IMG/VR virus record: IMGVR_UViG_3300036945_000814
Location: 1-64,000 of that record
DNA length: 64,000 bases
Direction: 5' to 3' (one strand)
Source of the DNA: a virus
The notes beneath the pieces are model-generated. The model was not told the DNA's origin. It did not search any database and saw only the letters and a program-made list of their open reading frames with translations. Shown here piece by piece: positions 36,813 to 55,045 of this stretch. A program made the translations under genes and the position numbers. Numbering within the stretch: the stretch's first letter is position 1; the number at the start of each line of letters is the position of its first letter.

Positions 36813-37912
36813 TGACGCTCCCCTCCAAAGCCGAAGCCGAAGACTTTTTCTCGCAGCTCCGTCGCTTTTCCAAGCGGCTCGTGAACAAGGCGCTCCCCGG
36901 CACCGCCGACAGCAGCCCGAACATGAAGCCGTACAGCAAGGGCAAGCCCAAGGGCGCGATCCTGCACTACACGGCGTCGGGCAACTGGCAGAGCCCGGTC
37001 AAGTGGTTCAACGACTTCAAGGTGTGCAGCGCCCACGTCGTCGTCGCCCACAACCTCGACCCCATCGCCGCCGGCCTCGCCGATGACCTTCCGCTCGTGA
37101 AGGCGCTCCCCGTCACCGTGATCCAATGCATCGACCCGCGGCAGGCCGCATGGCACGCGACGTGGGCCAACGGCCTCTGCTACGGCATCGAGAACCGAAA
37201 CGCCGGGCTCGTGAAGCGCGACAACCCGAGCGCCCCATGGCGACACTGGCCGCCAGCGAAGGGCAACCCCGACGAATGGACCTCGCTTGCCCCCAAGACC
37301 GGCCAAGGCTACGTCGCGACCTCCGACACCCTCGGCTACGAGCCCTACAGCAAGGCGCAGCTCGCCGCGAACGTCATCCTGCTCCGCTACGTCGGCGCCC
37401 TCGGCGGCGCCGCCCTTGAGCCCCATTGGGTGCTTCCTCACAGCGCCGTGCAGGGCAACAAGTACGACACCGGCCCGCTCTTTCCGATCCATGAGATCCG
37501 CCGTCTCGCGTGCATCGACACGGCCGCCGATCCCATGACCGCCCTCGAAACCATCGAGCCCGACGAGGCCACGTCCGGCGACGACCTCGACATCCCGCCG
37601 ACGGGTGAGCACCTTGAGCAAGCACCCTTGCAGGAGCGCGAGGCCATCGAAGCCGCCATCGCAGGGCTCGCCGTCGTCGAGGCCCACATCCCGAACAAGC
37701 CGCACGCCTTCGCCCACCTCGTGCGGCCGAGCCTCGACAAGCTCGGGTTCTTCGTCCCCTCACCGCCCGATCCCCGCGTCGTCGACGTGTGGCTGCGTCG
37801 CGCGCTTTGGATCTTTCAGACCGGCATCAAGATCGAAGCGACGTGCGTGCCCGATGACGTCACACGCGCCAAGCTCGCCGAGCGGCTGGCGACGCTTGGC
37901 CTCCCCGCGTGA
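36812..37912 (+). CDS. Endolysin: N-acetylmuramoyl-L-alanine amidase (amidase_2 type)
   Basis: 366 residues. The catalytic domain spans about 40-235: KGAILHYTASGNWQSPVKW with the first zinc His, CSAHVVVAHN, AWHATWANGLCYGIENRN, and WVLPHSAVQGNKYDTGPLF with the second His and the K-D pair typical of amidase_2. The C-terminal 130 residues, with DPRVVDVWLRRALWIFQTG, may bind peptidoglycan. No signal peptide, so release would need a holin; none is clearly seen. No ribosome site precedes the ATG; see the promoter entry. GTGA overlap with the terminase. Confidence 0.88.
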   Translation: MTLPSKAEAEDFFSQLRRFSKRLVNKALPGTADSSPNMKPYSKGKPKGAILHYTASGNWQSPVKWFNDFKVCSAHVVVAHNLDPIAAGLADDLPLVKALPVTVIQCIDPRQAAWHATWANGLCYGIENRNAGLVKRDNPSAPWRHWPPAKGNPDEWTSLAPKTGQGYVATSDTLGYEPYSKAQLAANVILLRYVGALGGAALEPHWVLPHSAVQGNKYDTGPLFPIHEIRRLACIDTAADPMTALETIEPDEATSGDDLDIPPTGEHLEQAPLQEREAIEAAIAGLAVVEAHIPNKPHAFAHLVRPSLDKLGFFVPSPPDPRVVDVWLRRALWIFQTGIKIEATCVPDDVTRAKLAERLATLGLPA

Positions 37913-39600
37913 GCGCCCCCGTCGACCTCGAAGCGATGTCACCGGCCGACGCCAACGCCGTCGAGCTGGCGATGCAGCGCGCGAGCGTTGCCTACTTCGC
38001 TTCCCGCAACCTCTCGGGTCCGCCGGAGGCGCCCTACAACGGGCGTTTCATCGTCGGCGACCACCACCTTGAATGGGATGAGCTTGCGACTTCGGATCGC
38101 GTCTGCGTGCTTGCCCCGCGCGATCACGGCAAGTCGTTTTTCTGGAACAAGGCTTTCCCGATCTGGAAAGCAGCCTTCGGACTGCCGGGGCAGATCGGCT
38201 ACATTTTCTCGGTCAATCAGGACAAAGCCAACGAAATGCTCCAGATTCTCGTCGAGGAGCTGACAGGCAATCCGCGGCTCGCGTGGCTCACCCCCGTCGA
38301 TTGGGAACGACGGTGGAGCAAGCGCCGCATCCGCCTCACCACCGGCGTCGAGATCCGTGCAAGAGGCTTCGGCGTCAAGGTCCGCGGCGGCCATCCACAT
38401 TGGATCGTCAACGACGACATCCTGAGCGACGAGAACATTTACAGCGAGACGATCCGCAACAAGGCGATCGACTACTACCTGTCCGCCATCACGAACATGG
38501 TCGTGCCCGGCGGCCAGATCGCGACCATCGGCACGCCGATGCACCAAGCCGACCTCTACGCGCACCTCCGCGACAGCGGCCGATACAAAATGTGGGAGAA
38601 GCCCGCGCTCGATCGCGTGACGGGCAAGGCGCTGTGGCCCGCCCGCTACAACGAGGCCCTGCTCGCCGACCGCAAGCAGGAGATCGGCTCCGTCCGGTTC
38701 ACGCGCGAGTTCCTTGTGCGGCCCATGTCCGACGACATGAGCTTGTTCCCGTCGTACCTCTTCGACGGCGAGCCCTTCCGCCAGCGCAACGTGAAGATGG
38801 GGATGCCCCTCGGGTTCTGGCAGGCCCTTGGGATCCGCTGCTACATCGGCGTCGACATCGCACTGAGCGCCGAGACGGGCGCCGACTATCTCGTGATCTT
38901 CGTCCTCGGGATCGACGGCGACGGCAACCGCTGGGTCGTGGACATCCACCGCGACAAGGGCGTGCCCTACGCCCGGCAGCTCGACCTCATCGTCGAATAC
39001 AGCCGCCGCTACGACGCCGCCCTCGTGTTCGTCGAGGCCAACCAAGCGCAGCGCGTGTGGGGCGACGAGCTGATCCGCACGACCGACATCCCGATCAAGA
39101 AGTTCACCACGATCGGCAAGGGCGTCGGCGCCGGCAAAACGATGTCGCAGACCGCGAACAAGAACGACCTCGCCAAAGGCGTGCCGTCGTTGCGTCCGCT
39201 GCTCGAAAACAAGAAGTGGCGATGCCCGCAAGGCGACACGCAGTCCGTCGAGAAGGCGCGTATCTGGATCGGCGAAATGAACGCCTTTTCTTGGATCAAC
39301 GGCAAGGTGCAGGGCGTCGGCTCCCACGACGACACCGTCATGGCAGCATGGATCGCAGAGCAGGCCGTGCGCCGCGGCGGGTTCTCGGCGAGCTTCGGAG
39401 ACGGTGAGGGGGAGATCGATCCCCGTGCGCTGGCGAAGCACGCCGAGCGCATCGCCGCTCTTGCCGAGGGCCGCGGGCCAGCGGACAATGGGGCCGCGGC
39501 TTCCGTCAATCCAAGCGGGAGCAGCGGCAACCTCGGCGCGTCTGATATGACTTCGGATCAACAGCTTTGGGCCGCGGTCCCGTTCTACCAGCAAGGGTGA
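37909..39600 (+). CDS. terL: Terminase large subunit
   Basis: 563 residues from the GTG in the overlap. ATPase motifs: Walker A APRDHGKSFFW (69-79, K75), Walker B WIVNDDIL (D169, D170) and a coupling region near AKFAT-like IATIGTPMH. The nuclease domain has IGVDIALSAETGADYLVI (D316), FVEANQAQRVWG and a final HDDTVMAAWI (D474, D475), which complete an RNase H-like active site. It pumps DNA into the prohead and cuts it. The length is normal. Small terminase not certain; a candidate is at 14.2 kb. Confidence 0.95.
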   Translation: MSAPVDLEAMSPADANAVELAMQRASVAYFASRNLSGPPEAPYNGRFIVGDHHLEWDELATSDRVCVLAPRDHGKSFFWNKAFPIWKAAFGLPGQIGYIFSVNQDKANEMLQILVEELTGNPRLAWLTPVDWERRWSKRRIRLTTGVEIRARGFGVKVRGGHPHWIVNDDILSDENIYSETIRNKAIDYYLSAITNMVVPGGQIATIGTPMHQADLYAHLRDSGRYKMWEKPALDRVTGKALWPARYNEALLADRKQEIGSVRFTREFLVRPMSDDMSLFPSYLFDGEPFRQRNVKMGMPLGFWQALGIRCYIGVDIALSAETGADYLVIFVLGIDGDGNRWVVDIHRDKGVPYARQLDLIVEYSRRYDAALVFVEANQAQRVWGDELIRTTDIPIKKFTTIGKGVGAGKTMSQTANKNDLAKGVPSLRPLLENKKWRCPQGDTQSVEKARIWIGEMNAFSWINGKVQGVGSHDDTVMAAWIAEQAVRRGGFSASFGDGEGEIDPRALAKHAERIAALAEGRGPADNGAAASVNPSGSSGNLGASDMTSDQQLWAAVPFYQQG

Positions 39601-39604
39601 CTCC

Positions 39605-42600
39605 ATGAGCCTGATCCTCGACCTCAAGAAAAGCGCCGCCATCCTGAACGCAGGCGGCGAGGGGCAAGAGAAGCGGTGGACGCGCTATCCGGGCGCCGCC
39701 AGCATGTTCAACGCCCGCGACGCCGAGCACCGCGAGACGCAGCGGCTCATGACGCAGATGCCCACGCCGAAGCTCGCCATCAGCGACGGCAACTTCACGA
39801 GCCCCGACGACGTGGTGAAGGGCCTCGGCTTTGGCGCCACCGACGAGACGTTGTGGGCGCACCGCGTGGCCCGCATGGTCGCCCGCGCGCCGAGCGAAAT
39901 GGCGCTGCGCAAGGCTGTCGTCGGCGACCTCCGCGGCGAGGCCCTTGAGCCCCCGCTGCGCGCCGAGCTTGGCCGCCGCATCCTCTCGCTGTACCGGCAG
40001 AGCGCCGGCGGCAAGCCGCTTGAGAAGGGCTTTCCGCCGAAGAAGGGCGCTCCGCCCGCCGGCGGCCGCCCGCCCATGATGGGCGCCCCCGACGAAGACG
40101 AGGGCAACAGCGCCGGCGGCGACGGCGCCGCCGGTCCCGCCCCGATGCCGAAGCCCGCGATGAAGCCGGGCGGCCCGATGGGCAAGCCCGCCTCTCTCGG
40201 CGGCAAGCCCGGCGAGGCCCCCGGCGGCGTCGGCCGCAACCCCGCCGTCGACGCCGCGGAGCTGACCGAGCTGCCCGACGACAAGAGCCTGTTGCAGAAC
40301 AAGATCCATGCGCTGCACGAAGACCTCAAGAGCTGCCAAGGCCCGATCACCGGCAACGCCGCGCTGATCCACATGCACAACGACATCAAGGCGCAGATGC
40401 GCGCCGCCTACCGCGATCCGAACCCCGAGATCGTGAGCGACATCGATCACAAGATCCATCACTTCAAGAAGATGCTCGAAGGCCCGCCCCCGCCCGAGGT
40501 CGACCCCAACGACCCCAACGCGCAGGGCGACCCCGGCGCCGGTGGCTACGGCGACCGTGGCGGCCCGCCCAAGCCCGGAGCGATGGCCGGATCCCCGCCC
40601 TCCGGCCGGCAGCCCGGCAAGCGCCCTCCGCCGCCGCCCATGATGGGCAAGAGCGAGCGCGCCAAGGGCGCCCGAAAAGGAGGGCCACCCCGCCCTTTTG
40701 ACCTTGGCCGCCGCGCGATTGCCGCGGCGGCCTTCGACGACTTCTGCAAGGGCGCCGGACACAAGTACCTGCGGCGCCTGCCGACGGGGAAGGCGAAGCC
40801 GCGCTATCGCTACATCTACAACGCCGCCAAGGCCGTCGACACCAAGGCGCGCCCGAGCGTCGGCGAGAAGATCAAGGTCGATCACAACGGACAGGCCGGT
40901 CACTACGAGGTGAAGCGCGTCATGCGCTCCGGGCAGGTCGAGATCCATCACGACGAGACGGGTCACCGCATGGTGATCCACCGATCCAAGCTGCACGACC
41001 TCGTGCGCGACGTCCACGCACCCGCCAAGCTCGACCGCCAGCTCGAAAACCAACGCCTCGACGAAGCGCACCGCAAGGTCGACATGCTTCCCCGATCCAA
41101 GCAGGGCGTGCTCGACAGTATCAAGGCCGCGAGCGGCATCGACGACCACGACCTCGCACAAGCCGACGCGGCCTACGCCGCGTGGAAGGGCCGCGGCCGC
41201 AAAGGCCCGAAGCCGACGCGCGCTGGCAAGGGCGGCGAGCTTGACTCGTTCTCCGGCGACCTCAAGCGCGGCAAGCACTACTCGTCGCTGCTCGAAGCGT
41301 TCGAGGTCGCCACCAAGGGCGCAAAGACGTGGCGCGACATCGCGCCCGTGATCCAACAGCTCCGCGAGGTGCCGGGATTCGAGAACGCGCACCTTCCCGA
41401 AGACGCCTTGCTGCGGCACGCGATGCAGGACCGGGAGCGCGAAGACGCCCCCGACACGCGCCGCGTGGACCCCGAGACGTATGGATCGACGCTGTCGAAC
41501 ACCGTCGATGACGGCGGCTTTGACTGGACGAGCGGCGAGCAGCACCCGGCCCTGTCCACGCCCTCGCAGCTCAAGGCGGCGAAGAAGCGCGCCGCAGCAG
41601 CGAAGAAGGCCGGCAAGGCCGCCGAGCCCGTCGCCCCGCCGCGCGAGGCCCCCGCCGTCGCCGACGACGAGCCCTACACGCCGTCGGACCCCGACGCCCC
41701 CGGCGCGGACAGTGGCGAGCCCGAGCCCGCCGGCGATGTTTCTTTCGACTTCGGCGCCAGCGCGCCCGACGAGCCCGATGAGTGGGGAACCGATATGTGG
41801 CGATCCGACGTGAACCTTGTCCTCGATCTGCGCAAGGCCGCGGACATTTTCGACGGCGTCTCCAAAGAGGAAGCGCGTGGCCTCGCCCGTGCGCTCAACG
41901 TCGACATGGGGAAGATCGATCTCGCACAGTGGAAGCGGGGCATCGCGCATGAGCGCGAGCACTCCGACCTCACCCGCGACCCCGTCAAGATCGCGCGCAT
42001 CGCTCTCGCCCACCTCAAAGAAGATCCATCGTACTACGTCAAGCTCGGCAAGATGGAGAAGGCCGACGGCGGCACCGTGACGATGAAGGCCCCCAAGGCG
42101 CCCGCGCCGCCAGCGCCAAAGGCCCCCGCTCCCGCCCCCAAGGCCCCGAGCGCGTCTCCCGCTCCCGCCGCCGCCCCCAAGCCCCCGAGCGCCCCCGCGC
42201 CGTCCGCAGGGGCATCCACGGCCGTCGGCCGGGCACCGAAGCCCCCGAGCGCCAGCGCGCCCCCGCCGCCGTCGGCGAAGCCGACGGCGCCCCCGCCGTC
42301 GAGCGCAGCAGCTCCGACCAAGGCCGGCCCGGCCCCGAGCGAGCCCGCGCACGCCAAGTTCCAAGAGCTGCAAGCCAAGCACGCCGAGGCCCTGTCGTCG
42401 CTCCAAAGCGCGCACGCCGCCATGACCGCGCACGCCGAGAAGCACGGCATCGCCATGCCCTCGTCGAGCGCGCCGCCGACGACGTCGAACGCACCGACGG
42501 CGATCTCGGGCAGCGGCCCGCGCGTCGACCACAGCGTCGCCCGCGGTCCAAGCTCGGCAGCGCCCGCCGCCCCGGCGGCGCACGATGACGACGTGTTCGC

Positions 42601-45600
42601 CCCCATCGGTTCCGGCGGAGGTGCCACCGGCGTCGCCCGCAAGACGCCCGCCCCCGGCAAGCCTGCCGCTGGCAGCGACGGCAGCGAGTTCAAGCACCTT
42701 TCCGGCCCCGTCTCCGGCGAGACGCCCGAGGAGTCGGTGCCCAAGGCCGACGGCATCCTCGCCCACGGCGTCGTCGGTCACACGTCGAGCGGCAAGCAGG
42801 TGTCGCTCGGCATGAACACCGACAAGCTCACGCCGCAGGAGGCGCACGAGGCGTCGTTGCTGCACCGTGACGCGCAGGAGCACTTGCTCAACGCGGCACG
42901 GCACACGGGCAACGCCGAGTACAAGACCGCCGCGCGTGCGCACCTCGACGCCGAGTTTTCGCACGCATCGAGCAGCGTGAGCGCGACCGCTCAAGCCACC
43001 GATCCGACTGAGCAGAAGCCGTGGGCCGGTCCCGGCGGAGGCGGGCCGGGCGCGCGCACCGCGGACGAGCACAAGCAGCAGGCGGCGGCCACGGACGCTG
43101 TCGCCGACAAGCACGAGGCGGCCGGAAACACCAAGCTGGCGACGGTGTACCGCACCGCCGCTGACGCATCACGCAAGGCAGCGGCCTCGGCCCCGGCGAA
43201 GCCCGGCGCGGCGCCTGCGGCGCACGATGACGACGTGTTCGCACCGATGGGATCGGCCACGAAGTCTCTGTCGGCGGTGTGGGATCGGTTGTCCGCGTGG
43301 CACCCGTCGCCCATGTGGGCGGGCGAGGACATCGGCATGAGCTTCGGCCACCTTCTGAGCAAGGCGATGGGCGTCGAGCAGGCCGGGCACAAGTACATCA
43401 AGCGCACAGCCAAGGCCGGCGGCGGGTACGACTACGTCTACGCCGACGAGCCCCACAGCAAGGAAACGCTCAAGGGTGCGCCCATCGGGTCGACCTTGAC
43501 GGCGCTGCACAATGGATCGTCGGCGACGTACACGAAGAAGGGCAAGGACGACTGGCACGGCGCCACCGGCGGCCCGATCTCGTCGGGATGGTTCGTGGGC
43601 AAGCCCGGAATGCTCACGCACGGCCCCGCACACCCCGAGCCCGTCCACGCGCCGGCGCCGGCGCCCGTCGCAGCTCCGCCGGCACCGAAGCCCACGGCCT
43701 CGAAGCCTGCCGGCAAGCCCGTGCAGGGCAGCCTGTTTGACATGCTGACGGCGCCCGCCCCGGCGGCCGAGCGCCCCAACAACTTCGAGACGATGCCCGA
43801 CAAGCCGGCGGCGTCACCGATGGCGGAGGCCGTGAAGGAAGCCGAGAAGCAGCCGGCGACGTTCGAGGTGCAGGCCGCTGCGGCCATCGACGACGCGAAC
43901 GCCGCCGACGACCGCGGCGACGAGGCCGCCCACCGCGAAGCAAGCAAGCGCCTCGCCGAGATCCGATCTGCGGCCGCCGAGGCCGAAAAGCCCGCAGCGC
44001 CCGAGCGCGACCGCCCCAACAACTTCGTCACCATGCCGGATCCCGAGCCCGGCGAGGCCAAGCCGAAGGCGCCGTCGGCCGCCGAGAAGACGAAGCGCGA
44101 GAAGTTCGAGGAAGCCAAGGCCAAGGCCGGCGCAGCCTCACCGATGGCCGAAGCGACGAAGGAAGCCACCAAGCAGCCCGCCGACGTGAGCGGCGCGTGG
44201 AAGCTCACCTACGACGCGGAGGCGGAAGACGCGGAAGAGGCCAAGATCAGCGAGCGCCACGCGAAGTTTCTGGAGGACAAGAAGAAGGCCCTCGCCGTCG
44301 CCGAACGCGCTCAAAAGAGCGCGCAGCACAGCATCGACTACGACAAAGAGCACTTCAAGATGAAGCGCGACGGCGTGCCGTGGGCCGCGAAGCCGACGCA
44401 GCTCAAGTCGCTGCAACTGCGCACCGCAGAGCTGGCGCACGCCAAGATGGATCTTGAGTACTCCACGCAGCGTTTTGCAGGCGCCGCCAAAGAGCGAGCG
44501 GAGCAGCGCGCCACCCGCAAGGCCGCCGCGGAGCGCCATGTGCGTGAAGCCCCGGAGCGCACGAAGGTCGCAGCCGCGGCCCGCGAGCGCATCGCCGCCG
44601 AAGAGGCACGCCAGAAGGCGGCCCGGCTCGTGATGACCGAGTCGACGAAGACCTCCCGCCAGCGCGAGCGCGAGACGGGTGAGCACATCGCCGCTTCGGC
44701 AAAGGACCGCTCAGACGAACGTCGCATGATCACGACGGGCGACCTTGGATCGATGACGTTCTCCGACGCGCACCGTCTCGTGAACAAGCGGAACGCGATG
44801 CCGGTCTACGGCGCCGACGAGTTCCAAGCCAAGGGCGCGAGCCCCGGCGCGGCCCACATGGGCCTCGCGCTGGCGAACCTCATCGCGCCGTCGCCGCCCG
44901 AGGACAGTGACGACGCCCGCCGCCGGTACCTTGAGGGCATCCGCCTCGTGCATGGCGTGCTGGACAGCGCGAACACCGTCGCCGACTACGCCGAGGCGCG
45001 CAAAGAGCTTGCGGCCATGCACAGCGGCGACAACGTCCCGAAGACGGAGATCCATTCAGCCGTCAAAAAGACGGCTGACGAAAAGGCGGCTGACGTCAGA
45101 AAATACCAAGCGGACTACCGCGCTTGGCAGTCCTCCCACAGCGGCACTCGCCCCGAGTCGCCGCAGGACTATCACGGCATCACCACCTACCCCGGAAACT
45201 ACATCCGCGAGGTGTTGACGCCCCGTGTGAAGGCGCAAGATCCAGACCTTGAGGTCGGCTACGAGTACGTCGATTCTGGCGGCGCCGGTGAGCGTCTGTC
45301 GTTCTTCACCTATTCCAAGTCGAGGAAAGAGGCGATGCGCAAGACCATCGACGCCCTCGGCAAGAGGTTCGTCGATCATGTGGTCGGCGACGGGAAGGTC
45401 TGGAACGACGCGAAGGCCAAGGCGCAGGAAGCCGAAGACATGGGCCTTGCCGGGTGGGATCACCTCGACAAGACCGACGAGGAAAAGGCACGAGCGCGGG
45501 AAGCCACCAAAGCCGAGAAGGCGAAGCTGGCGGAGAACGAGAGTGGCAGCGGCAAGGAAACCAAGCTCCGCTGGCGCCGGTCGATCTCGAAAAAGCCCGC

Positions 45601-46618
45601 CGTGATCGGCGCCAAGGTCACGATCACAGACTCGGACCCCGAGCGGTTCCGCAAGACCTTCAACTTCCGTGGCGAGCAGCCCGGCGAGGCCATCCCCGAC
45701 GCCGAGCTGAATCACCACCGCAAGTACGCCGAAATGGCGTTCCACGACCTCGCCGACGTGCTCGGCATCGAGCCCCGGCAGGTGTCGATGAACGGTCGGC
45801 TCGCGATGGCGTTTGCCGCGCGCGGCAAGGGCGGAGCGATGGCCCACTATGAGCCGGCGGAAAAGGTCATCAACGTCACCCGGTTCGCAGGTGCCGGTAC
45901 CGTCGCCCACGAGTGGGGGCACTTCATGGACAACATCGTCGCCGAGCTGCACCGAGGTGGGTCCACCAAGAGCGCCGTGTACGCATCCGCGGGTGAGGGC
46001 GAGGGGATGCCGGCGGAGCTTGCCGCGGCCTACGCGAAGTTCAACGCCGCGCTGAAAGAGCCGAACCCCAAGACGATCGAACGCTTGAAGAAGGATCACG
46101 CCGACCTCGACAAAGAGTACGAGGACACGCGGAAAATGCTGAGAGAACACCCCGCGAACACGAGGGCCGACAAGACACCCGAGCAGCGCAAGGCCGACGT
46201 GGACAGCTACAACGTGATCGTCAAGAACCTTGGGCACATTTCCACGCAGCAAAAGCTCATCCAAAACTTCCTGCGCAACCCGACGTCGGACTACATGCAC
46301 GACGCCATCGGCCGCGACGGCGGAAGGCGCGGCAAGTATTGGTCGAACCCGCAGGAGCTTTTCGCCCGCGCCTTTGAGAGTCATGTGCAGCACAAGCTCG
46401 AAAGCCAAGGCCGGCGCAACAGCTACCTCGTCGACGGCGCTGTCGGCCCCGGCAGCCCCTACCCGCAGGACGATGAGCTGTCGAAGATCCACGGCGCGAT
46501 CGGTGGCATCATCACGGCCATTCACGGCGCCAAGCTCTTCGAGAAGGCCCTCAAGGCGCTATCGTCTGTCCCGCTGACGGCGCGGCGGCGCGGCCCCAAG
46601 CTCGTGATCGCCGCTTAG
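39605..46618 (+). CDS. Giant polyvalent protein with DUF5661-like, LPD1 and zincin domains
   Basis: 2337 residues. It begins SLILDLKKSAAIL; a related start, VNLVLDLRKAADIF, recurs near residue 738, as if two ancestors fused. Domains: GHKY module at 385; DUF5661-like about 748-820 (EHSDLTRDPVKIARIALAHL); Pro/Ala linkers; second GHKY at 1261; RPNNF-type motifs at 1390 and 1470; long coils; then LPD1, FRKTFNFRGEQPGEAI, with the zincin motif HEWGH (2102-2106) and FARAFESHVQHKL. Polyvalent proteins of this kind (described by Iyer, Aravind and colleagues, 2017) are thought to enter the host with phage DNA. Position between terminase and portal fits. Confidence 0.85.
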   Translation: MSLILDLKKSAAILNAGGEGQEKRWTRYPGAASMFNARDAEHRETQRLMTQMPTPKLAISDGNFTSPDDVVKGLGFGATDETLWAHRVARMVARAPSEMALRKAVVGDLRGEALEPPLRAELGRRILSLYRQSAGGKPLEKGFPPKKGAPPAGGRPPMMGAPDEDEGNSAGGDGAAGPAPMPKPAMKPGGPMGKPASLGGKPGEAPGGVGRNPAVDAAELTELPDDKSLLQNKIHALHEDLKSCQGPITGNAALIHMHNDIKAQMRAAYRDPNPEIVSDIDHKIHHFKKMLEGPPPPEVDPNDPNAQGDPGAGGYGDRGGPPKPGAMAGSPPSGRQPGKRPPPPPMMGKSERAKGARKGGPPRPFDLGRRAIAAAAFDDFCKGAGHKYLRRLPTGKAKPRYRYIYNAAKAVDTKARPSVGEKIKVDHNGQAGHYEVKRVMRSGQVEIHHDETGHRMVIHRSKLHDLVRDVHAPAKLDRQLENQRLDEAHRKVDMLPRSKQGVLDSIKAASGIDDHDLAQADAAYAAWKGRGRKGPKPTRAGKGGELDSFSGDLKRGKHYSSLLEAFEVATKGAKTWRDIAPVIQQLREVPGFENAHLPEDALLRHAMQDREREDAPDTRRVDPETYGSTLSNTVDDGGFDWTSGEQHPALSTPSQLKAAKKRAAAAKKAGKAAEPVAPPREAPAVADDEPYTPSDPDAPGADSGEPEPAGDVSFDFGASAPDEPDEWGTDMWRSDVNLVLDLRKAADIFDGVSKEEARGLARALNVDMGKIDLAQWKRGIAHEREHSDLTRDPVKIARIALAHLKEDPSYYVKLGKMEKADGGTVTMKAPKAPAPPAPKAPAPAPKAPSASPAPAAAPKPPSAPAPSAGASTAVGRAPKPPSASAPPPPSAKPTAPPPSSAAAPTKAGPAPSEPAHAKFQELQAKHAEALSSLQSAHAAMTAHAEKHGIAMPSSSAPPTTSNAPTAISGSGPRVDHSVARGPSSAAPAAPAAHDDDVFAPIGSGGGATGVARKTPAPGKPAAGSDGSEFKHLSGPVSGETPEESVPKADGILAHGVVGHTSSGKQVSLGMNTDKLTPQEAHEASLLHRDAQEHLLNAARHTGNAEYKTAARAHLDAEFSHASSSVSATAQATDPTEQKPWAGPGGGGPGARTADEHKQQAAATDAVADKHEAAGNTKLATVYRTAADASRKAAASAPAKPGAAPAAHDDDVFAPMGSATKSLSAVWDRLSAWHPSPMWAGEDIGMSFGHLLSKAMGVEQAGHKYIKRTAKAGGGYDYVYADEPHSKETLKGAPIGSTLTALHNGSSATYTKKGKDDWHGATGGPISSGWFVGKPGMLTHGPAHPEPVHAPAPAPVAAPPAPKPTASKPAGKPVQGSLFDMLTAPAPAAERPNNFETMPDKPAASPMAEAVKEAEKQPATFEVQAAAAIDDANAADDRGDEAAHREASKRLAEIRSAAAEAEKPAAPERDRPNNFVTMPDPEPGEAKPKAPSAAEKTKREKFEEAKAKAGAASPMAEATKEATKQPADVSGAWKLTYDAEAEDAEEAKISERHAKFLEDKKKALAVAERAQKSAQHSIDYDKEHFKMKRDGVPWAAKPTQLKSLQLRTAELAHAKMDLEYSTQRFAGAAKERAEQRATRKAAAERHVREAPERTKVAAAARERIAAEEARQKAARLVMTESTKTSRQRERETGEHIAASAKDRSDERRMITTGDLGSMTFSDAHRLVNKRNAMPVYGADEFQAKGASPGAAHMGLALANLIAPSPPEDSDDARRRYLEGIRLVHGVLDSANTVADYAEARKELAAMHSGDNVPKTEIHSAVKKTADEKAADVRKYQADYRAWQSSHSGTRPESPQDYHGITTYPGNYIREVLTPRVKAQDPDLEVGYEYVDSGGAGERLSFFTYSKSRKEAMRKTIDALGKRFVDHVVGDGKVWNDAKAKAQEAEDMGLAGWDHLDKTDEEKARAREATKAEKAKLAENESGSGKETKLRWRRSISKKPAVIGAKVTITDSDPERFRKTFNFRGEQPGEAIPDAELNHHRKYAEMAFHDLADVLGIEPRQVSMNGRLAMAFAARGKGGAMAHYEPAEKVINVTRFAGAGTVAHEWGHFMDNIVAELHRGGSTKSAVYASAGEGEGMPAELAAAYAKFNAALKEPNPKTIERLKKDHADLDKEYEDTRKMLREHPANTRADKTPEQRKADVDSYNVIVKNLGHISTQQKLIQNFLRNPTSDYMHDAIGRDGGRRGKYWSNPQELFARAFESHVQHKLESQGRRNSYLVDGAVGPGSPYPQDDELSKIHGAIGGIITAIHGAKLFEKALKALSSVPLTARRRGPKLVIAA

Positions 46619-46629
46619 GCGTCTCACGG

Positions 46630-46657
46630 TTGACACTACGAATGGAGCGCCTACAAT
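46630..46657 (+). promoter_or_regulatory. Class A sigma-70-like promoter, copy 5 (near-leaderless)
   Basis: TTGACA at 46630-46635, a 16-base spacer, TACAAT at 46652-46657, the closest to consensus in the window. The predicted +1 at 46664 is one base before the ATG at 46665. It separates the two giant genes. Confidence 0.8.
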
Positions 46658-46664
46658 GGTTCGC

Positions 46665-49600
46665 ATGACCACACACGACACCATCGAAGACGCTTCCTTC
46701 GGTTTGCTGCTCAAGGCCGACATCGACGACGCCCTCGACGATCTCGAAAAGGCTTTCGGGTCGGAGCGGGCCGGCCACAAGTACAGCTCCCGCCGACGCA
46801 ACGCGAAAGGCGAGTGGGAGTACGAGTACGCCACCGACAAGACGAAGGCGCACGCGCAAATGGCGTTCACCTTCGCCGCGGCGCACGGCACCCCCGAGCA
46901 GCAGGATCGCGCCCTCGACGTGCTCAAGCGCGTCGAGCCGGACAGGTGGCCCGACCACGTCCACGCGGCCAACGTCGCGCACGAGGCCGCGGTCATCCAC
47001 GCGGCGAACGTCGCCCACGAAGCGGCCGCCCGACCCCTGCCACCATCGCCAGCGCACGAGCACAGCCCCCCGGCCGCCGCCGCGCCCCCTGCCGTCGTGA
47101 GGTTCACGCAGGGCGAGCCCAAGCCCGCCGTCGCCGCGGCCCGTGCGCTGGATGCCTCCCGTGCGAGCCTGATCCGCGCTGGCATCGGCCTGCGCGCCAA
47201 CGCAGAAGAGAAGACCCCTATCGAGGCCGTGGCCGGCCGCGCGGCCGCGCTTCGCAGCTCCGCCTCGTCGCTTTTCAATGAGTCGATCCGCATGGGCATC
47301 GTGAACGACGACCCGCGCACCGCGCGGAAGTTCACGGCCGAGGAACATCGGGCGCTGGCCGCCGCGCACACCGCCCTCTTCGACGAGTTCCGCGAGCTGT
47401 ACGCGCGCTCGATGACGATGCGCATTCGCCCGCCCTCCGGCATGACCGCCGCCGACGCCGATGCGCTCCGCTCCCAGCTCGAACGCGACTTCAAGGGGCA
47501 CGCCAAGCTCGCTCAAGCCCACAACGACGCCGCCAACGCGGCGTCGGGCAAGCCCGCACCCGCGGCCGCTGTGCCGCTCGTGGTCGCGCCTGTGGCGACT
47601 TCGGTCGCTCCGGCGCTGGACGCCGGCCCGGTGCAGCTCATGGACGCCGCCGCCCGCCTCATCGCCGAGCGTGCGAGCGGCGCGCCGCCGGCGTTCAAGG
47701 CCGTCGACAACAACCGCGTCACCATCGGTGGCGTCAAGATGATCGTGCAGGGTGGCTTCCTCGGCGACGCTCCCGCGCACCGCGCGTGGGCGGAGACGGC
47801 CGGCACGTTCTCGGCCGACGCGCAGCACTTCGACGGCGGCCGGGCCTACCGCGTCGCCACCGAGGCGGAGCGTGTGGCCGCCGTGGCGATGATCCCGCGT
47901 CTCCGCGGCTCCGTGAACGTCAACGCGCCCGCACCGGCCCCTGCCCCGGCGCCCGTCGTCGCCGAGCCCGTGCGCCCCGTCGACGACTTCACCGGCGCGT
48001 TCAGGGCGCTGAGTGACGGCAGCGGCGCCGAAGAGATCGTGACGCTCCCGTCGGGATCCAAGATCGGGCTGTCCTACGTCAGCGGACAGGCCAAGGCGCG
48101 CCCCGTCGGAGGCGGCATCGGCCGCAAATGGGATGCGACCGCGACGAAGCGCGCCCTCGCCGCCTTCGAGGCCAAGGTCGCCGCCCTCGGCCCCGCGTGG
48201 CACGCCGCCCACAACGCCATGTACGGCGTCGCCGCCGCCCCGACGCCGCTCGTGGTGGCGCCCGTGGAGACGGCCGCGCCGAAGCGCAAGCGCGCCAACA
48301 ACTTCGAGACGATGCCCGACGGCGACAGGCCCAACAACTTCGACACGATGCCCGAGGAGATCAAAGACCCGTCGCCGCGCGCCACAAAGATCCGAGAAAA
48401 CCGCGAAGCTCGCGAAGCCGAAGCCGCGTTGGAAGCCGGAGCCGAGCGACTGACGGGCGAAGAACGCCACGCCGCCCTGACCCGCATGGGCCAACACTTG
48501 CACGAGGTGCAGGACTTCCGGGCCGGCAAAGACGACACGGGCATGAGCGGCGCCGACATGCTGACGTGGCGCCGATCGACCACCGCACCCCGCAAGGCCA
48601 GCGTCCTCCGCAAGTACCGCCGCCAGCTCGTCGAGAGTTTCGGCGACCTCTACTTCAAGGCCGGGCTGCACGAGAAGGAGCCGATCCCCAAGGGGCACGT
48701 TCCTGCCGTCGGCGAATGGACCGAGCGCGGCGGGCTCGTCATCAAGGCCGACGGCTACCTCGGGACGAAGTTCAACGCATGGAAGAACCTGCTCAAAGAG
48801 CACGGCTTTCGCTGGAATGGATCACGCGGCGACGAAAGCGCCGACGGGATGCACGCAGAGAAGGCGGCGCTGCTCGACATCCCCGGCTTCATCGAGGCGG
48901 CGAACAAGATCGGGATCCATGTCGAGATCCCCGAGAAGCCCGAGGTCGCCCTCGATGCGCCAGCGGCGGCCAACGAGCCCGAGGCGCCCCTGCCCACGCC
49001 CGAGCGGCCGTCGGCGGATCGCCCGACGACCACCGAGGACACGCAGCGGGTCATCAACGCCATTCGCGCCAAGCAGGGCCAGCGCGGCACCGTCGCCGTC
49101 ACCGTGAAGCCCGACGGCAAGTTTGCTTTCTACGCCGTCGACTACCGCAAGACCGAGGTGCCCGGCTCGTTCAACCACATCATGTCGAACAAGAACGGGC
49201 AGATCACCGGGCTCATGGAGGTCGACTCCAAGGACGCTTTCTCGCGCACCACCTACGACGCCGCCCTCGTGACCGAGGCGCTTGGCAAGCTCCGCGACGC
49301 CAACCCGACCTTCCATTTCTACATCGACCCGAAGGCCGCCGCCGCCATCGACAAGGCCGGCGCCGACAAGGCCGCAGCCGAGAAGCCGATCCCAGAAGTC
49401 GAGGCCCTGCTTGCCGACGGCTTCGCGCTCAAGCCCTACCAGAACGCGATGGTGCGGTTCCTCGACAGCAACGACGGCAACGCCATCGTCGGCGACGAAA
49501 TGGGCCTTGGCAAGACGCTGCAATCGCTCGCGTGGGTGGCGAAGAACAACAAGAAGGCCATCGTCGTCGTCCCCAAGGTCGTGCGCCGCACTTGGATCGA

Positions 49601-50987
49601 AGAGGCGCACAAGTTTTTCCCCGGACACTTCAACGCGAAAGAGCTGCGATCCAAGGATCTGCTCACGAAGAAGAAGGCCAAGGCCGGCAAGGCCGACGCC
49701 GGCGGCCTCTCGTTCATCGACGAGCTGATGGCAACCGACAGCCCGATGGATCTCACGGGCAAGAACCTCGTGACGGTCAACTACGAGTCGCTTGAGAAGT
49801 TCATGCCCTACCTCAAGGCCGCCGGGTTCGACACGATCATCGTCGACGAATCGCACCGCGCGAAGAACCCGAAGGCGAAGACGACGCAGGTGATCCAAGC
49901 CATCGCGAAGACGATGAAGCATCGCATCCTCATGTCCGGCACCGCGGTCAAGAACGGCAAGGATGAGCTTTTCACGCAGCTCGAAATGGTGAAGCCCGGC
50001 CTGTGGGGCTCGGCGAAGGAGATCAAGTTTTCCACGCATGGCGCTGCGTGGAACAAGATGCGGGACCACTACCTCGCGCGATCCAAGAAGAACGTGCTCA
50101 AGGATCTCCCCGAGAAGACGACCACGATCAGCCTGCTCTACGCCCCCGGCGCGCCGGACATCGGCAAGATGAAAGAGCCGACGCCGCCACCGGCGAACGC
50201 CACCGCGAAGCAGATTGCGGCCTACGAAAAGGCCGCCGAAGAGTGGGAATCGTGGATGGAAGGGGCCGCCGACGGCGACGGCATCAACGAGGACATCGGC
50301 GATCTCATGGACGGCGGGTCGTCGATCGGCGAGTACAGCCGCGTCCGCGGCCAGCTCGCGCTGGCGAAGGTCGACGGCACCGTCGACATGGTGCAGGAGA
50401 TCCTTGATAGCTCCGACAGCAAGGTGCTCGTGTTCACCGAGTCGGTTGCCGCGGCGAAAGCCATCGCCGAAAAGCTCGGCAGCGAGGCGATCCTGCACTA
50501 CGGGCAGCAGAGCGACGACAAGCGCGAAGACGCGAAGAAGGAGTTTCAGCGCGAGGGATCCCCCAAGCGCGTGTTCGTCTCGACCCGCCCGTCGCTGGCC
50601 GTCGGCGCCACGCTCACGGCCGCCGACAAGGTCGTGTTCAACGACCTCCCGTGGACGGCCGCCGACGTGCGCCAAGCCGAGGACCGCGCGCACCGCGTGG
50701 GCCAGAAGAACGCCGTCAACGTCTACTGGAACGTCGCCGAGGACAACAAGTTCGACGAGAACGTCTCCGCCATCCTCCGCCGGAAGTACGACCTCTCGAA
50801 GAAGATCAACGAGGGGCAGCAGCTTTCGCCCGAAGAAAAGGCGTGGATGAGCAAGCCCGTCACCATGCGCGAAGTCATGGATCGCATCAAGGGCAAGCCC
50901 TCCGGCCCGCCCGAGCCCAAGATCGAAAAGAGCGCCAAGGCGCAGCTCCGCGACATGACCCGCGCGCTGATCAAAGCGGCAAGCTAG
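46665..50987 (+). CDS. Giant polyvalent protein with SNF2-type helicase domain
   Basis: 1440 residues. The ATG at 46665 fits the promoter better than one nine bases upstream that overlaps the -10. Layout: acidic start, GHKY module at residue 37, Ala-rich coil, two RPNNF-type motifs (543, 555), a helical domain, then SNF2 ATPase from about 915. Helicase motifs: YQNAMVRFL, Walker A GDEMGLGKTLQ (943-953), DESH (1061-1064), LMSGTAVKNG, VLVFTESVAAAKAI, and RAHRVGQKNAVNVYW. It ends with FDENVSAILRRKYDLS. The helicase resembles SMARCAL1-type remodellers. Probably a virion-borne enzyme; inferred from its place and GHKY tag. Confidence 0.88.
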   Translation: MTTHDTIEDASFGLLLKADIDDALDDLEKAFGSERAGHKYSSRRRNAKGEWEYEYATDKTKAHAQMAFTFAAAHGTPEQQDRALDVLKRVEPDRWPDHVHAANVAHEAAVIHAANVAHEAAARPLPPSPAHEHSPPAAAAPPAVVRFTQGEPKPAVAAARALDASRASLIRAGIGLRANAEEKTPIEAVAGRAAALRSSASSLFNESIRMGIVNDDPRTARKFTAEEHRALAAAHTALFDEFRELYARSMTMRIRPPSGMTAADADALRSQLERDFKGHAKLAQAHNDAANAASGKPAPAAAVPLVVAPVATSVAPALDAGPVQLMDAAARLIAERASGAPPAFKAVDNNRVTIGGVKMIVQGGFLGDAPAHRAWAETAGTFSADAQHFDGGRAYRVATEAERVAAVAMIPRLRGSVNVNAPAPAPAPAPVVAEPVRPVDDFTGAFRALSDGSGAEEIVTLPSGSKIGLSYVSGQAKARPVGGGIGRKWDATATKRALAAFEAKVAALGPAWHAAHNAMYGVAAAPTPLVVAPVETAAPKRKRANNFETMPDGDRPNNFDTMPEEIKDPSPRATKIRENREAREAEAALEAGAERLTGEERHAALTRMGQHLHEVQDFRAGKDDTGMSGADMLTWRRSTTAPRKASVLRKYRRQLVESFGDLYFKAGLHEKEPIPKGHVPAVGEWTERGGLVIKADGYLGTKFNAWKNLLKEHGFRWNGSRGDESADGMHAEKAALLDIPGFIEAANKIGIHVEIPEKPEVALDAPAAANEPEAPLPTPERPSADRPTTTEDTQRVINAIRAKQGQRGTVAVTVKPDGKFAFYAVDYRKTEVPGSFNHIMSNKNGQITGLMEVDSKDAFSRTTYDAALVTEALGKLRDANPTFHFYIDPKAAAAIDKAGADKAAAEKPIPEVEALLADGFALKPYQNAMVRFLDSNDGNAIVGDEMGLGKTLQSLAWVAKNNKKAIVVVPKVVRRTWIEEAHKFFPGHFNAKELRSKDLLTKKKAKAGKADAGGLSFIDELMATDSPMDLTGKNLVTVNYESLEKFMPYLKAAGFDTIIVDESHRAKNPKAKTTQVIQAIAKTMKHRILMSGTAVKNGKDELFTQLEMVKPGLWGSAKEIKFSTHGAAWNKMRDHYLARSKKNVLKDLPEKTTTISLLYAPGAPDIGKMKEPTPPPANATAKQIAAYEKAAEEWESWMEGAADGDGINEDIGDLMDGGSSIGEYSRVRGQLALAKVDGTVDMVQEILDSSDSKVLVFTESVAAAKAIAEKLGSEAILHYGQQSDDKREDAKKEFQREGSPKRVFVSTRPSLAVGATLTAADKVVFNDLPWTAADVRQAEDRAHRVGQKNAVNVYWNVAEDNKFDENVSAILRRKYDLSKKINEGQQLSPEEKAWMSKPVTMREVMDRIKGKPSGPPEPKIEKSAKAQLRDMTRALIKAAS

Positions 50988-51017
50988 AGTAGATCCGTTC
51001 ACCCCCGAGGACCGCCC

Positions 51018-53276
51018 ATGAGCACCAACGAAGCCACCGCCCTCTTGAACGACTCGCCGCTGCTCAAGTCGGACGACGGCCACAAGTACGTCAAGCGTGA
51101 GGGGATGCCCGGCGCCTACAAGTACACCTACGCCGACGGCAGCACCGGCCACACCGAGCACAAGCCCACGTTTCAGCTCGGCGCCGCGGCGCATCAACAG
51201 GGCCTCTTCGGCGCCAGCTCCTACGAGAAGAAGCCGGCGAAGCCGAAGGCCCCCGATCCCTTGGCGCACCGGCAGGTCGATATGTTCGCGCCGAAGCCGG
51301 CAGCCGCCACAGCGCCCGCGCCCGCGCCCGCGCCCGAGCCCGCGTCGAAGTTTGACGAGGTCGTTTCAGCCGCCTACACGCAGCGCGCCCGCGAGGCCGG
51401 CGCTGCCTCGGCCCATGCTCGCGAAATGGATCAAGCCGGCTACCACGGAGGCATCAGCAACGCCCACAGGCACGCCGCTTCCGCGCATCGTCGAGCCGGC
51501 GAGGCCGCCATCGCCCTTGGTCACGGCGCCAACACCGCCATGCACGGCAAGCAGATGGCGCACCACGAGAAGCAGGCGGATCTCGACGACGACATCGCCG
51601 CACGCCACGCCGCAACGCGCAGCGGTGCCGCAAAGGAGGCTTCCGACCGCGTCATGGCTATCGCCGACAAGGCGAAGAAGACGACGATGGTCGACACGCC
51701 CGCGGGGCCGCGTGAGTCCACGCCGGGCGGGCTCAAATGGTACGGCGACAAGCCCCACAACCCGGAGGCGCTGGCCGCGGCGCGTGAGGCTTACGGCAGC
51801 GCCAAGTCCGAAGGCCGCAGCGACAAGCTGGCCCACAGCAAGGCGTCGAAGGCCGCGCAGAAGCACCTCGGCGGCGTCACCGGCGCGTGGGATCACGCGA
51901 CGCACGCTCAAGAGCTGCACGATCACGCGAACGGGAACCGGCACGAGATCCCCGGCGGCGCCGACCGCGCAGGGCCACCGCCCCGTGCGCCCGCGAAGAA
52001 GAAGTCCCCGAAGGCGCAGGCCACGCACGCGGCCAAGGTCGCCGACGCCGCTTCGGCGAAAGAAAACGCCGCCGATCACGCGCACGACATGGGATCCAAG
52101 GCGACCACCCTTTCCACGGCCGCCCACCGCCTTTCCAACGCCGGCGGCGACATGGGAAGCGCGAACCACCAAGCCGCGCACGAGGCGCACAAGGCCGCCG
52201 CCGCTGCCAACCGCGAGGCCGCCTCGGCGTTCCAGCAGCCGGGCGCCAGCGTGAGCATTGCAGGCAAGTCGTTCTCGTCGCTGCACGAGGAGCGCGCGAA
52301 GGCGCACGACGAGAAGGCCGGCGATCACTGGCGCGAGGCGGTCAAGGCGCGCTCCGACGAAGAGGGTGAGCCATTCAGCCAAGCCGCGACGCACAAGGTC
52401 GACGGCACGAAGAAGACGGATCTCGACAAGCTGCACGAAGGTGTGGCGGACCTCAAGCCATCCGCCATGCGCAGCGACGGGCACTTCACGCGGGCTGCCG
52501 ACAAGTTCAAGGCGCTGCGCGACCACATCCACGAGAAGGTCGGCGCCCATCCCGCGCACGCGCACGCGAGCAAGGCGTTCACCCTCGCCAACACCGCGGC
52601 GCAGTCGTCCGGCAGCTACGACGTCAAGACGCGCCGCGAGCACATGGAAGGCGCGCAGCAGCACGCGCAGAAAGCGATCGACGCGATGAAGGGCATGGGC
52701 AAGAGCATGGATCACGAGGTCGGAATCTCCCGCTTCCAAGACCGCTCCGCCGGCCGTCCCGCCGCCGGCGGCGTGTACGACGGGCTCGGCTCCGGCATGG
52801 TCGATCCCACCGTGGATCGCCCGCGCTACGCCGGCCGCGCCCCCAATCAGGTGATCGCCGTCGGCGTCGCTGGCGACAGCAACGACCGCAACACCTTCGC
52901 CTACCAGAAGGGCCGGCAGTCCGGCGCCACGTTGGATCTGGCGAAGTCGGCGATGATCGGCGCCGTCAAGGACGGCTACCGGATGCAGCTCATCGCCGTC
53001 GCCGACGCCAACCCCGTTGCCTCGCTCATCATGCGCGGCCGCGTGGAAGGCGAGCGCCCGATGGTGCCCGCCGAGCTGCGCAAGAGTGTGCAGCTTTCCG
53101 CGCCCGACCCCGACGCCGTCGTCGCCTTCGCCGCGGCTGCCCTCAAGGCTGCCAGCGACCGCAACCCGCAGCTTCGGGAAGGGCTCTCGCGCCTCGGCGT
53201 CTCCCGTGCCACCCTGTACGCGACCCTTGAGGCGCTGGCCCTCACACCGGCAGGGATGACCGCCGGCAACCGATAG
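51018..53276 (+). CDS. Ala/His/Lys-rich protein with GHKY module
   Basis: 752 residues; ATG with GAGGA upstream. GHKYVKREG starts at residue 21 and YKYTYADGSTG follows. A Pro/Ala linker leads to about 430 residues of Ala, His and Lys-rich helix (EMDQAGYHGG-like segments, HAHDMGSKATTLSTAAH). From about 610 a folded segment begins (NQVIAVGVAGDSNDRNTFAY, YRMQLIAVADANPVASLI). The end, REGLSRLGVSRATLYATLEA, is helix-turn-helix-like. No enzyme motif. Likely a structural or ejected protein; it shares its tag with the two giant genes before it. Confidence 0.7.
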   Translation: MSTNEATALLNDSPLLKSDDGHKYVKREGMPGAYKYTYADGSTGHTEHKPTFQLGAAAHQQGLFGASSYEKKPAKPKAPDPLAHRQVDMFAPKPAAATAPAPAPAPEPASKFDEVVSAAYTQRAREAGAASAHAREMDQAGYHGGISNAHRHAASAHRRAGEAAIALGHGANTAMHGKQMAHHEKQADLDDDIAARHAATRSGAAKEASDRVMAIADKAKKTTMVDTPAGPRESTPGGLKWYGDKPHNPEALAAAREAYGSAKSEGRSDKLAHSKASKAAQKHLGGVTGAWDHATHAQELHDHANGNRHEIPGGADRAGPPPRAPAKKKSPKAQATHAAKVADAASAKENAADHAHDMGSKATTLSTAAHRLSNAGGDMGSANHQAAHEAHKAAAAANREAASAFQQPGASVSIAGKSFSSLHEERAKAHDEKAGDHWREAVKARSDEEGEPFSQAATHKVDGTKKTDLDKLHEGVADLKPSAMRSDGHFTRAADKFKALRDHIHEKVGAHPAHAHASKAFTLANTAAQSSGSYDVKTRREHMEGAQQHAQKAIDAMKGMGKSMDHEVGISRFQDRSAGRPAAGGVYDGLGSGMVDPTVDRPRYAGRAPNQVIAVGVAGDSNDRNTFAYQKGRQSGATLDLAKSAMIGAVKDGYRMQLIAVADANPVASLIMRGRVEGERPMVPAELRKSVQLSAPDPDAVVAFAAAALKAASDRNPQLREGLSRLGVSRATLYATLEALALTPAGMTAGNR

Positions 53277-53284
53277 GAGCCCGC

Positions 53285-55045
53285 GTGGACCTCATCAAGC
53301 CCGAGCAGATCCGCGCCATGATGGCGACGGCCATCGAGTCAAAGCTCTCGCAGGCCGTGCATGACGCGACCGGCGAGGCCATCGAGCGGCTTGTCGAGGC
53401 GCAGATCCAAGATCAGCTCGCCCCGATGATGGGCGGGCTGCTCGCCAAGGGCAACGGCGGCGACCCCGGCCCGCGCCCCGGCCAGCTCTCGCAGACGACG
53501 GCCGCCGACCCCAAGGGCCTGCTCTACGATCCGTTCACGGCCCTCGACCAGATGGGCTTTCGCGAGCGCCCGAGCGCCATCACGTTCCGCACGCTCGGCG
53601 AAATGGCCCGGCGGGTGCCGCCGTTCTCGGCGTACCTGCAAACGCGGTTGAACCAGATGGCCGCCTTCTGCGAGCCGCAACCCGACGAGCACAGCGTCGG
53701 GTTCAAGTTTGTCCTCAAGGACAAGCAGGCGAACCTGTCGAAGAAGATGCAGCGCCGCAACGACGAGCTGACCCGGTGGCTCTCGGCGATGGGCGACCCC
53801 GAGCTGAACATCAAGCGCGACAAGTTTGGCGCGTGGATGCGCAAAAGCATGTGGGATTCCCTCGTCTACGATCAGATGACGACGGAGATCGTGCCCCGCA
53901 AAGATGGATCGGCGCCGTCGTACATCCGCGCGCTCGACGCCGCCACGATCCGTGTTTCCGACACGCTCGACGAGGTCGACTACATCGACGAGACGATCCA
54001 ATACGTTCAGATTTACGACGACACGATCATCGCGGAGTTCAAGGAACACGAAATGATCTTCGGGATCCGAAACCCGCGCAGCGACATTCGCTACAGCGGC
54101 TACGGAATGCCCGAGCTGGAAATGCTGATCAGCATCGTCACCGCGCTCCTTTGGGGCATCGACTACAATGCCAAGTTTTTCTCGCAGGGCTCGGTCGCGA
54201 AGGGCCTGCTCAACTTCAAGGGCGCCATCCCCGAGAAGGAGCTGATCGCGTTCCGCCGTCAGTGGTACTCGATGATCACCGGCGTGCAGAACGCTTGGCG
54301 CACTCCCGTCGTCAACGCGGAAGACGTGCAATGGCTCAACATGCAGTCGAGCAACCGCGACATGGAGTTTGCGGCTTGGATCGACTGGCTGCTCAAGGTG
54401 ACGTGCGCCGTCTGCCAGATCGCCCCCGAAGAGATCGGGTTTCAGTTTGGCAACGCGGGCCAGACCTCGACGATGTCGGAGGGCTCGCAGGCCGACAAGC
54501 TGGCGCAGAGCAGGGACAAGGGCCTCATCCCTCTCGCCAAGTTTGTCTGCGAACAGCTCAACGACAAGGTGATCGACAAGCTCGACAACCGCTTCCGGTT
54601 GGAGTTTGCCGGCGTGAACGCACGCACCGCCGAGGCGTTGATCGACTTGCAGACCAAAGAGGTCAAGACCGTCAAGACCGTCGACGAGGTCCGCAAAGAG
54701 CGCGGCGAAGATCCATTGCCCGACGGGCTCGGCGCCGTCATCCTCGACTCGGTGTGGTTGCAGTTCATGCAGGCGAAGAACGCCGAGAAGCAGCAACAGC
54801 AGCAGGCCGGAGGCGGCGACGGCTACGGCGCCCCGCCCGGCTCCCCGCAGATGGACGGCGCGCCCCCGTGGGAAGGCGACGGCACCGATCAGCAGGAGCA
54901 ACCGGACGATGCCGGCCAAGGCGGCGACGTTGACGCGGGAGGCGCACCGCCCGACGATGTGCAGAAGAGCGGACGCAGCGGCTTCGGCCTTTCGCCGGCC
55001 CAACAGCGCGCGCTCCGCACGTTGGATCTTGAGGTCGATCTGTGA
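53285..55045 (+). CDS. Portal protein
   Basis: 586 residues from a GTG with TAGGAG upstream. Typical portal features: SAITFRTLGEMARRVPPF at about 97, DELTRWLSAMGDPEL, NPRSDIRYSGYGMPELEM, then the conserved helix LLWGIDYNAKFFSQGSVAKG and LNFKGAIPEKELIAFRR. The stem and crown helices (AAWIDWLLKVTCAVCQIAPE) follow, then a Gln/Gly/Asp-rich tail. It forms the ring through which DNA enters and leaves the capsid. A GTGA overlap leads to the next gene. Confidence 0.9.
   Translation: MDLIKPEQIRAMMATAIESKLSQAVHDATGEAIERLVEAQIQDQLAPMMGGLLAKGNGGDPGPRPGQLSQTTAADPKGLLYDPFTALDQMGFRERPSAITFRTLGEMARRVPPFSAYLQTRLNQMAAFCEPQPDEHSVGFKFVLKDKQANLSKKMQRRNDELTRWLSAMGDPELNIKRDKFGAWMRKSMWDSLVYDQMTTEIVPRKDGSAPSYIRALDAATIRVSDTLDEVDYIDETIQYVQIYDDTIIAEFKEHEMIFGIRNPRSDIRYSGYGMPELEMLISIVTALLWGIDYNAKFFSQGSVAKGLLNFKGAIPEKELIAFRRQWYSMITGVQNAWRTPVVNAEDVQWLNMQSSNRDMEFAAWIDWLLKVTCAVCQIAPEEIGFQFGNAGQTSTMSEGSQADKLAQSRDKGLIPLAKFVCEQLNDKVIDKLDNRFRLEFAGVNARTAEALIDLQTKEVKTVKTVDEVRKERGEDPLPDGLGAVILDSVWLQFMQAKNAEKQQQQQAGGGDGYGAPPGSPQMDGAPPWEGDGTDQQEQPDDAGQGGDVDAGGAPPDDVQKSGRSGFGLSPAQQRALRTLDLEVDL

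Follow-up and report, generated by a model that had tools for sequence, protein, structure and literature searches.

GHKY and GPYIG modules directly behind predicted prohead-protease sites in the polyvalent head-cargo proteins of uncultivated phages

Two kinds of short conserved module, GHKY (type A) and GPYIG (type B), recur in the giant multidomain proteins encoded among the head genes of uncultivated phages, and at the sequence level both kinds directly follow a short motif, [LIM]xK|[SAG], where the bar marks a predicted cut. The original prediction, which took the GHKY module for a capsid-packaging or ejection signal, had missed this, the strongest association of all: a predicted prohead-protease site stands directly ahead of nearly every module, and a role linked to processing is thus indicated at least as much as one in packaging or ejection. 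The module is probably the second half of a release-and-tag cassette, such that predicted cleavage would cut the cargo into tagged payloads.

Results

The head operon and its cargo

The window, by which we mean the whole 64,000-nt stretch analysed here, part of a 107-kb virus record, contains a set of head genes that all lie on the + strand. The large terminase subunit gene (TerL, 37909..39600) is followed by those of a 2337-aa polyvalent protein with DUF5661, LPD1 and a zincin-like HEWGH stretch (39605..46618), a 1443-aa SNF2 helicase polyvalent protein (46656..50987), and a 752-aa cargo protein with no known domain (51018..53276). Next come the genes for the portal (53285..55045), a MuF (minor head)-InPase-ParB polyvalent protein (56163..59621), a head maturation protease of the SPO1 type (59952..60794), the head scaffold (60815..61723) and an SU10_MCP-like major capsid protein (MCP; 61786..63225). 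The protease matches PHROG_1028 (E=3e-41), and its His67 and Ser134 are invariant in 18 homologues, as befits a catalytic His and Ser. Two relatives emerged from a search with the portal, L006 (85%) and L009 (46%), both with the same modules in more copies.

Judged by their sequences, the module-bearing proteins of the window have the typical make-up of polyvalent proteins encoded in a head operon and are its predicted cargo: they are multidomain (DUF5661 with LPD1 in one, a MuF-like N-terminus with InPase and a ParB-like region in another) and are encoded with the portal-terminase head genes. Across 51 module proteins the domains include InPase, ddrB-ParB, SNF2, RadC, zeta toxin, RNA ligase and SAM lyase, among others. 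Examples are found at L009:11942-16978 and L009:3673-6795, where module-bearing cargo has a SAM-lyase-like domain, ddrB-ParB and a zeta-toxin-like kinase, and at other loci with RNA ligase, RadC, GGDEF or topoisomerase. We also note a MuF protein (L009:17443-20223) whose cysteine/histidine region is interrupted by Hint/intein domains (Hint_2 E=8e-9), and, in the window at 29203-31323, a protein of 706 aa whose N-terminal part is a dCMP deaminase domain and whose long remainder is unassigned.

Modules of the window

The GHKY module is present at residue 385 (GHKYLRRLPTGKAKPRYRYIYN, 40757..40822) and residue 1261 (GHKYIKRTAKAGGGYDYVYA, 43385..43444) of the 2337-aa protein, at the N-terminus of the SNF2 helicase protein (GHKYSSRRRNAKGEWEYEYA, 46773..46832) and at residue 21 of the 752-aa protein (GHKYVKREGMPGAYKYTYA, 51078..51134). 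All four are where they had been predicted, with the tails YRYIYN, YDYVYA, YEYA and YKYTYA; the helicase GHKY is residue 40 from the start at 46656 and residue 37 from an alternative Met at 46665. These four occurrences of the full pattern in 28,406 aa of called proteins compare with none in 300 within-protein shuffles of the called proteins of the 107-kb record, in which the tetrapeptide by itself appears a mean of 0.06 times per shuffle. The MuF protein had been credited with a similar sequence, and GPYIGPKGGKW is indeed there (GGPYIGPKGGKW at 57705, in the MuF-InPase-ParB protein, 56163-59621), as part of a single type B module (GPYIGPKGGKWADPEHTVAW, 57708..57767); its supposed position between terminase and portal is wrong, however, as it lies downstream of the portal.

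A predicted protease site, identified by motif match, stands ahead of all five modules: FCK|G (40742..40753), 3 residues upstream of the module at 40757, then LSK|A (43355..43366), LEK|A (46743..46754), LLK|S (51060..51071), and LAK|A (57693..57704) ahead of the GPYIG module. A short HNGxxxxY region, which may be a small beta domain, comes after both modules of the 2337-aa protein (window 40850-41100 and 43500-43650) and is seen in L009 and L006 as well.

The motif ahead of the modules

The generality of this arrangement is evident among non-redundant modules at IMG/VR loci selected by module, scored for [LIMFV]xK[SAG] no more than 18 residues upstream: such a site precedes 95 of 103 type B and 27 of 34 type A modules, compared with 12-13% of random control positions in the same proteins. 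In type B the motif Lys is mostly 2 or 3 residues ahead of the module. A site within 18 residues is missing for roughly 8% of type B and 20% of type A modules, although the majority of these do have one a little farther up. Site density reaches ~0.8-1.0 per 10 residues just upstream of the module, falls to zero over the next 40 residues and stays near zero to about +90, so that the module opens a site-free stretch. The residues N-terminal to the site are poorly conserved.

For a held-out set the protease alignment was used to scan the viral collection, so that the loci were chosen by neither module nor motif, although some lie in contigs already represented; the module profiles used on it were built without the upstream residues. 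All 59 module matches in this set are on the protease strand and none is downstream of the protease, and a site precedes 41 of 45 non-redundant modules, against 10% of control positions. Of the 38 held-out protease loci with 8 kb or more of upstream sequence, 22 contain a module. The signal is positional, as no general LxK excess is found over whole polyvalent proteins (9 vs 7.1 expected in the 2337-aa protein), and many motif matches may therefore not be cut.

The motif as a predicted prohead-protease site

We infer from enrichment and homology that the motif is where the SPO1-type prohead protease of the phage cuts. Within the window genome LxK[SAG] is strongly enriched only in the protease (7 sites vs 1.0 expected) and the scaffold (10 vs 0.9), and the MCP has an LNK|A site near its N-terminus, at K31; scaffold and protease thus hold several copies of a short motif that also occurs at the start of the shell protein. 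The scaffolds of 15 relatives, taken by gene position after the protease with no motif assumed, yield KS (109 vs 25) and L.K (101 vs 28) as the top-ranked residue pairs, and the MCPs of relatives have in common an N-terminal LxKA-type stretch.

Among cultured phages the closest proteases belong to SPO1 and the Herelleviridae; they are homologous at ~42% identity and encoded in the same protease-scaffold-MCP order with the same LxK[SAG] enrichment. In SPO1, a distant cultured phage that serves as an independent control, the scaffold has 11 sites vs 1.3, the protease 8 vs 1.5 and the MCP an LNK|A, and the neighbouring tail genes have no LxK[SAG] excess. The GPYIG module, present in the window phage, was not found in SPO1 by profile search. 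A search of the accessible literature returned no paper measuring the cleavage rule of the SPO1-type protease lineage. The motif has the form of rules known elsewhere, L/I-x-E for gp21 of T4 (PMC9026906) and A-x-E|S for gp245 of SPN3US (PMC10052503), with Lys at P1, and this supports its reading as a cleavage site.

Distribution of the modules

Searches of the viral collection with DNA patterns identified 87 stretches with GP[YF]IGPxGGKWAD and 24 with GHKY. An SPO1-type protease is encoded in 27 of the 29 longer module-bearing records, the other two being fragments, and in those 27 records all 149 modules (94 B and 55 A) are on the protease strand, 1.8-32.6 kb upstream of the protease gene. 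The proposed tie between the module and head cargo is thereby borne out. Further module variants include GDYYRRVVLPNGKVKYFYTE, VGPRGGKIVGYRRGHLPIYAGS and GGKYI[KR]R after LFKG (L009:3673-6795, L009:20444-21370, L085, L089).

Among 84,980 cellular species genomes only 2 have the exact GPYIG pattern, and in at least one of the two it falls within the head genes of a split prophage. In this genome, the Myxococcales MAG CP070713.1 (L232-L234), modules are situated among TerL, portal and MuF genes, with protease, scaffold and MCP elsewhere in the assembly, the two parts of the prophage head region lying at 0.56 Mb and at 2.90 Mb in the assembled chromosome; we read the locus as a split or mis-scaffolded prophage. 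Plasmids gave two matches, at E 2-4, and none for GHKY, and tblastn of cultured phages with a single module gave nothing useful. The one weak match, in MT835611, falls in a short frame devoid of any phage-like protein and was judged to be due to chance.

Structure, relationship and exchange of the modules

AlphaFold2 predicts a beta hairpin for the GHKY module of the 752-aa protein, with strands at 20-24 and 27-31 and a pLDDT of ~84 for the block against a whole-model mean of 62, in agreement with the hairpin originally suggested. For GPYIG there is no confident fold. A fold search with the type A model gave no significant match, and library searches with the modules gave none for B in Pfam, for A in PHROGs, or for either in the PDB.

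The likeness between the two modules is partly real, in that the slot occupied by GPYIG in the window MuF protein holds a GHKY module in L006; as for their sequences, profile-profile comparison detects no homology (hhalign probability 0.4%), and the similarity is therefore one of position and use rather than proven descent. Over most of the region ahead of the module the two MuF proteins share 70-95% identity; this drops to ~20% across the module and payload, and the proteins are alike again at the next predicted site, VLK|S (59175..59186), which is the downstream end of the exchanged payload. The exchanged segment consists of GPYIG plus the ParB-like region in the window, and of GHKY plus another domain in L006. 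As the divergence is bounded by the module and the next site, a module together with the payload between two sites behaves as a single exchangeable cassette.

Discussion

That modules almost always come right behind a predicted protease site suggests that cargo is packed as a chain and cut into separately tagged payloads inside the head. Polyvalent cargo is encoded between the terminase and the head protease, with its modules behind [LIM]xK|[SAG]; enrichment and homology suggest that the SPO1-type prohead protease would cut at this motif, much as gp21 cuts L/I-x-E in T4. Cargo would enter the prohead as long chains, and there the protease would cut it while digesting the scaffold and trimming the capsid protein. 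Payload domains would be freed with the GHKY hairpin or GPYIG at or near the new N-terminus, and the module would be kept on the mature payload and ejected with the DNA. A module so retained would most likely define and protect the new N-terminus and dock or feed the payload within the head.

A packaging tag, a protease-presentation element and a retained N-terminal cap are all compatible with the sequence data. If scaffold, portal or capsid interior bound the module and so brought the cargo in, the cleavage site would be secondary; this is the packaging or ejection signal first proposed, and although all module proteins of the window are predicted cargo, modules are strictly confined to head-operon cargo, and the T4 capsid targeting sequences (CTS) are a precedent for short signals adjoining protease sites (PMC9026906), we consider it rather unlikely. 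A tag would not need the tight spacing of module B to its site, and the T4 arrangement, in which the conserved signal is N-terminal to the site and is removed, is not what is seen here: the conserved module is C-terminal to the cut and the residues before the site vary. That the module has a fixed place after the cut speaks for a role connected with cleavage or the new N-terminus, and less for a removable targeting peptide like that of T4. Such a role could amount only to prime-side recognition or presentation, with the module holding the scissile bond open or docking the protease for cuts at the domain borders of folded multidomain proteins and doing nothing later, which would fit the close fixed spacing, the Gly-rich P' residues and the site-free stretch behind the module. 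We regard this as unlikely, since the predicted cleavage of scaffold, protease and MCP involves no module, which makes the module unnecessary for cleavage as such, and since the conservation of its aromatic residues seems more than a spacer needs.

It is quite improbable that the module acts after ejection by directing payloads, jointly with clamp-binding-like QLxLF motifs in its vicinity, to DNA or a host factor. Motifs of the QL[SDG]LF type are enriched near modules (22 vs 0.96 by shuffling), yet they are absent from most module proteins, and the module's own sequence has no known link to them. Clamp-binding-like motifs (QL[SDG]LF, QxxLDF) are observed, for example, in L009 ORF 7344-9782, L006 7251-9776, L015 3461-8260, L025, L040 and L060, with QVDMF in the 752-aa protein of the window, and by these sequences some payloads may bind the host replication clamp. 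Were the module neutral, a linker between domains or a recombination junction that homologous exchange of cargo cassettes has spread, this would account for its being the breakpoint of payload exchange between close relatives; such neutrality is very improbable in view of two unrelated modules, each strongly conserved in protein sequence across very divergent phages and always in the same slot.

The release-and-tag reading has features in common with several known systems. Polyvalent proteins (Iyer et al. 2017) are likewise multidomain, lie beside terminase, portal and MuF genes and contain LPD1, InPase, ddrB-ParB, SNF2 and MuF domains, whereas GHKY/GPYIG modules and LxK prohead-protease sites are not described in the accessible part of that account (PMC5512222). 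Both here and in T4 a short P3-x-P1 motif occurs in scaffold, shell, protease and packaged internal proteins, but here P1 is Lys rather than Glu, the sites are repeated inside giant proteins, and the conserved element follows the predicted cut and would stay on the cargo (PMC9026906). In SPN3US and phiKZ, ejected head proteins are cut at a motif of three residues that is preferably followed by Ser at P1'; their P1 is Glu, however, the propeptides are mostly single and N-terminal, and no shared module is described (PMC10052503, PMC5694885). DarA and DdrB of P1 are injected head proteins processed during head assembly, though with neither a module nor an LxK rule reported in the accessible portions of the sources (PMC12810830, PMC5512222). 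No relevant paper came up in a full-text literature search for the module strings, and one for polyvalent proteins with prohead protease led to nothing beyond the 2017 paper (PMC5512222).

In the prior view polyvalent proteins are separated by their own metallopeptidases, processing by such built-in enzymes being proposed in the accessible part of the 2017 account (PMC5512222). A wider reading, which we put forward as a real possibility and short of an expectation, is that of a plug-in delivery code common to many uncultivated phages, whereby any payload behind an LxK| site and GHKY or GPYIG would enter the prohead in a polyprotein, be cut free by the prohead protease, be kept by its exposed N-terminal module and be ejected with the DNA, two unrelated modules having converged on this use. 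The rule of LxK|[SAG] followed by a module would predict packaged domains, cut positions and mature payloads across many uncultivated phages, and the module could serve as a natural tag with which to load proteins of choice into phage heads.
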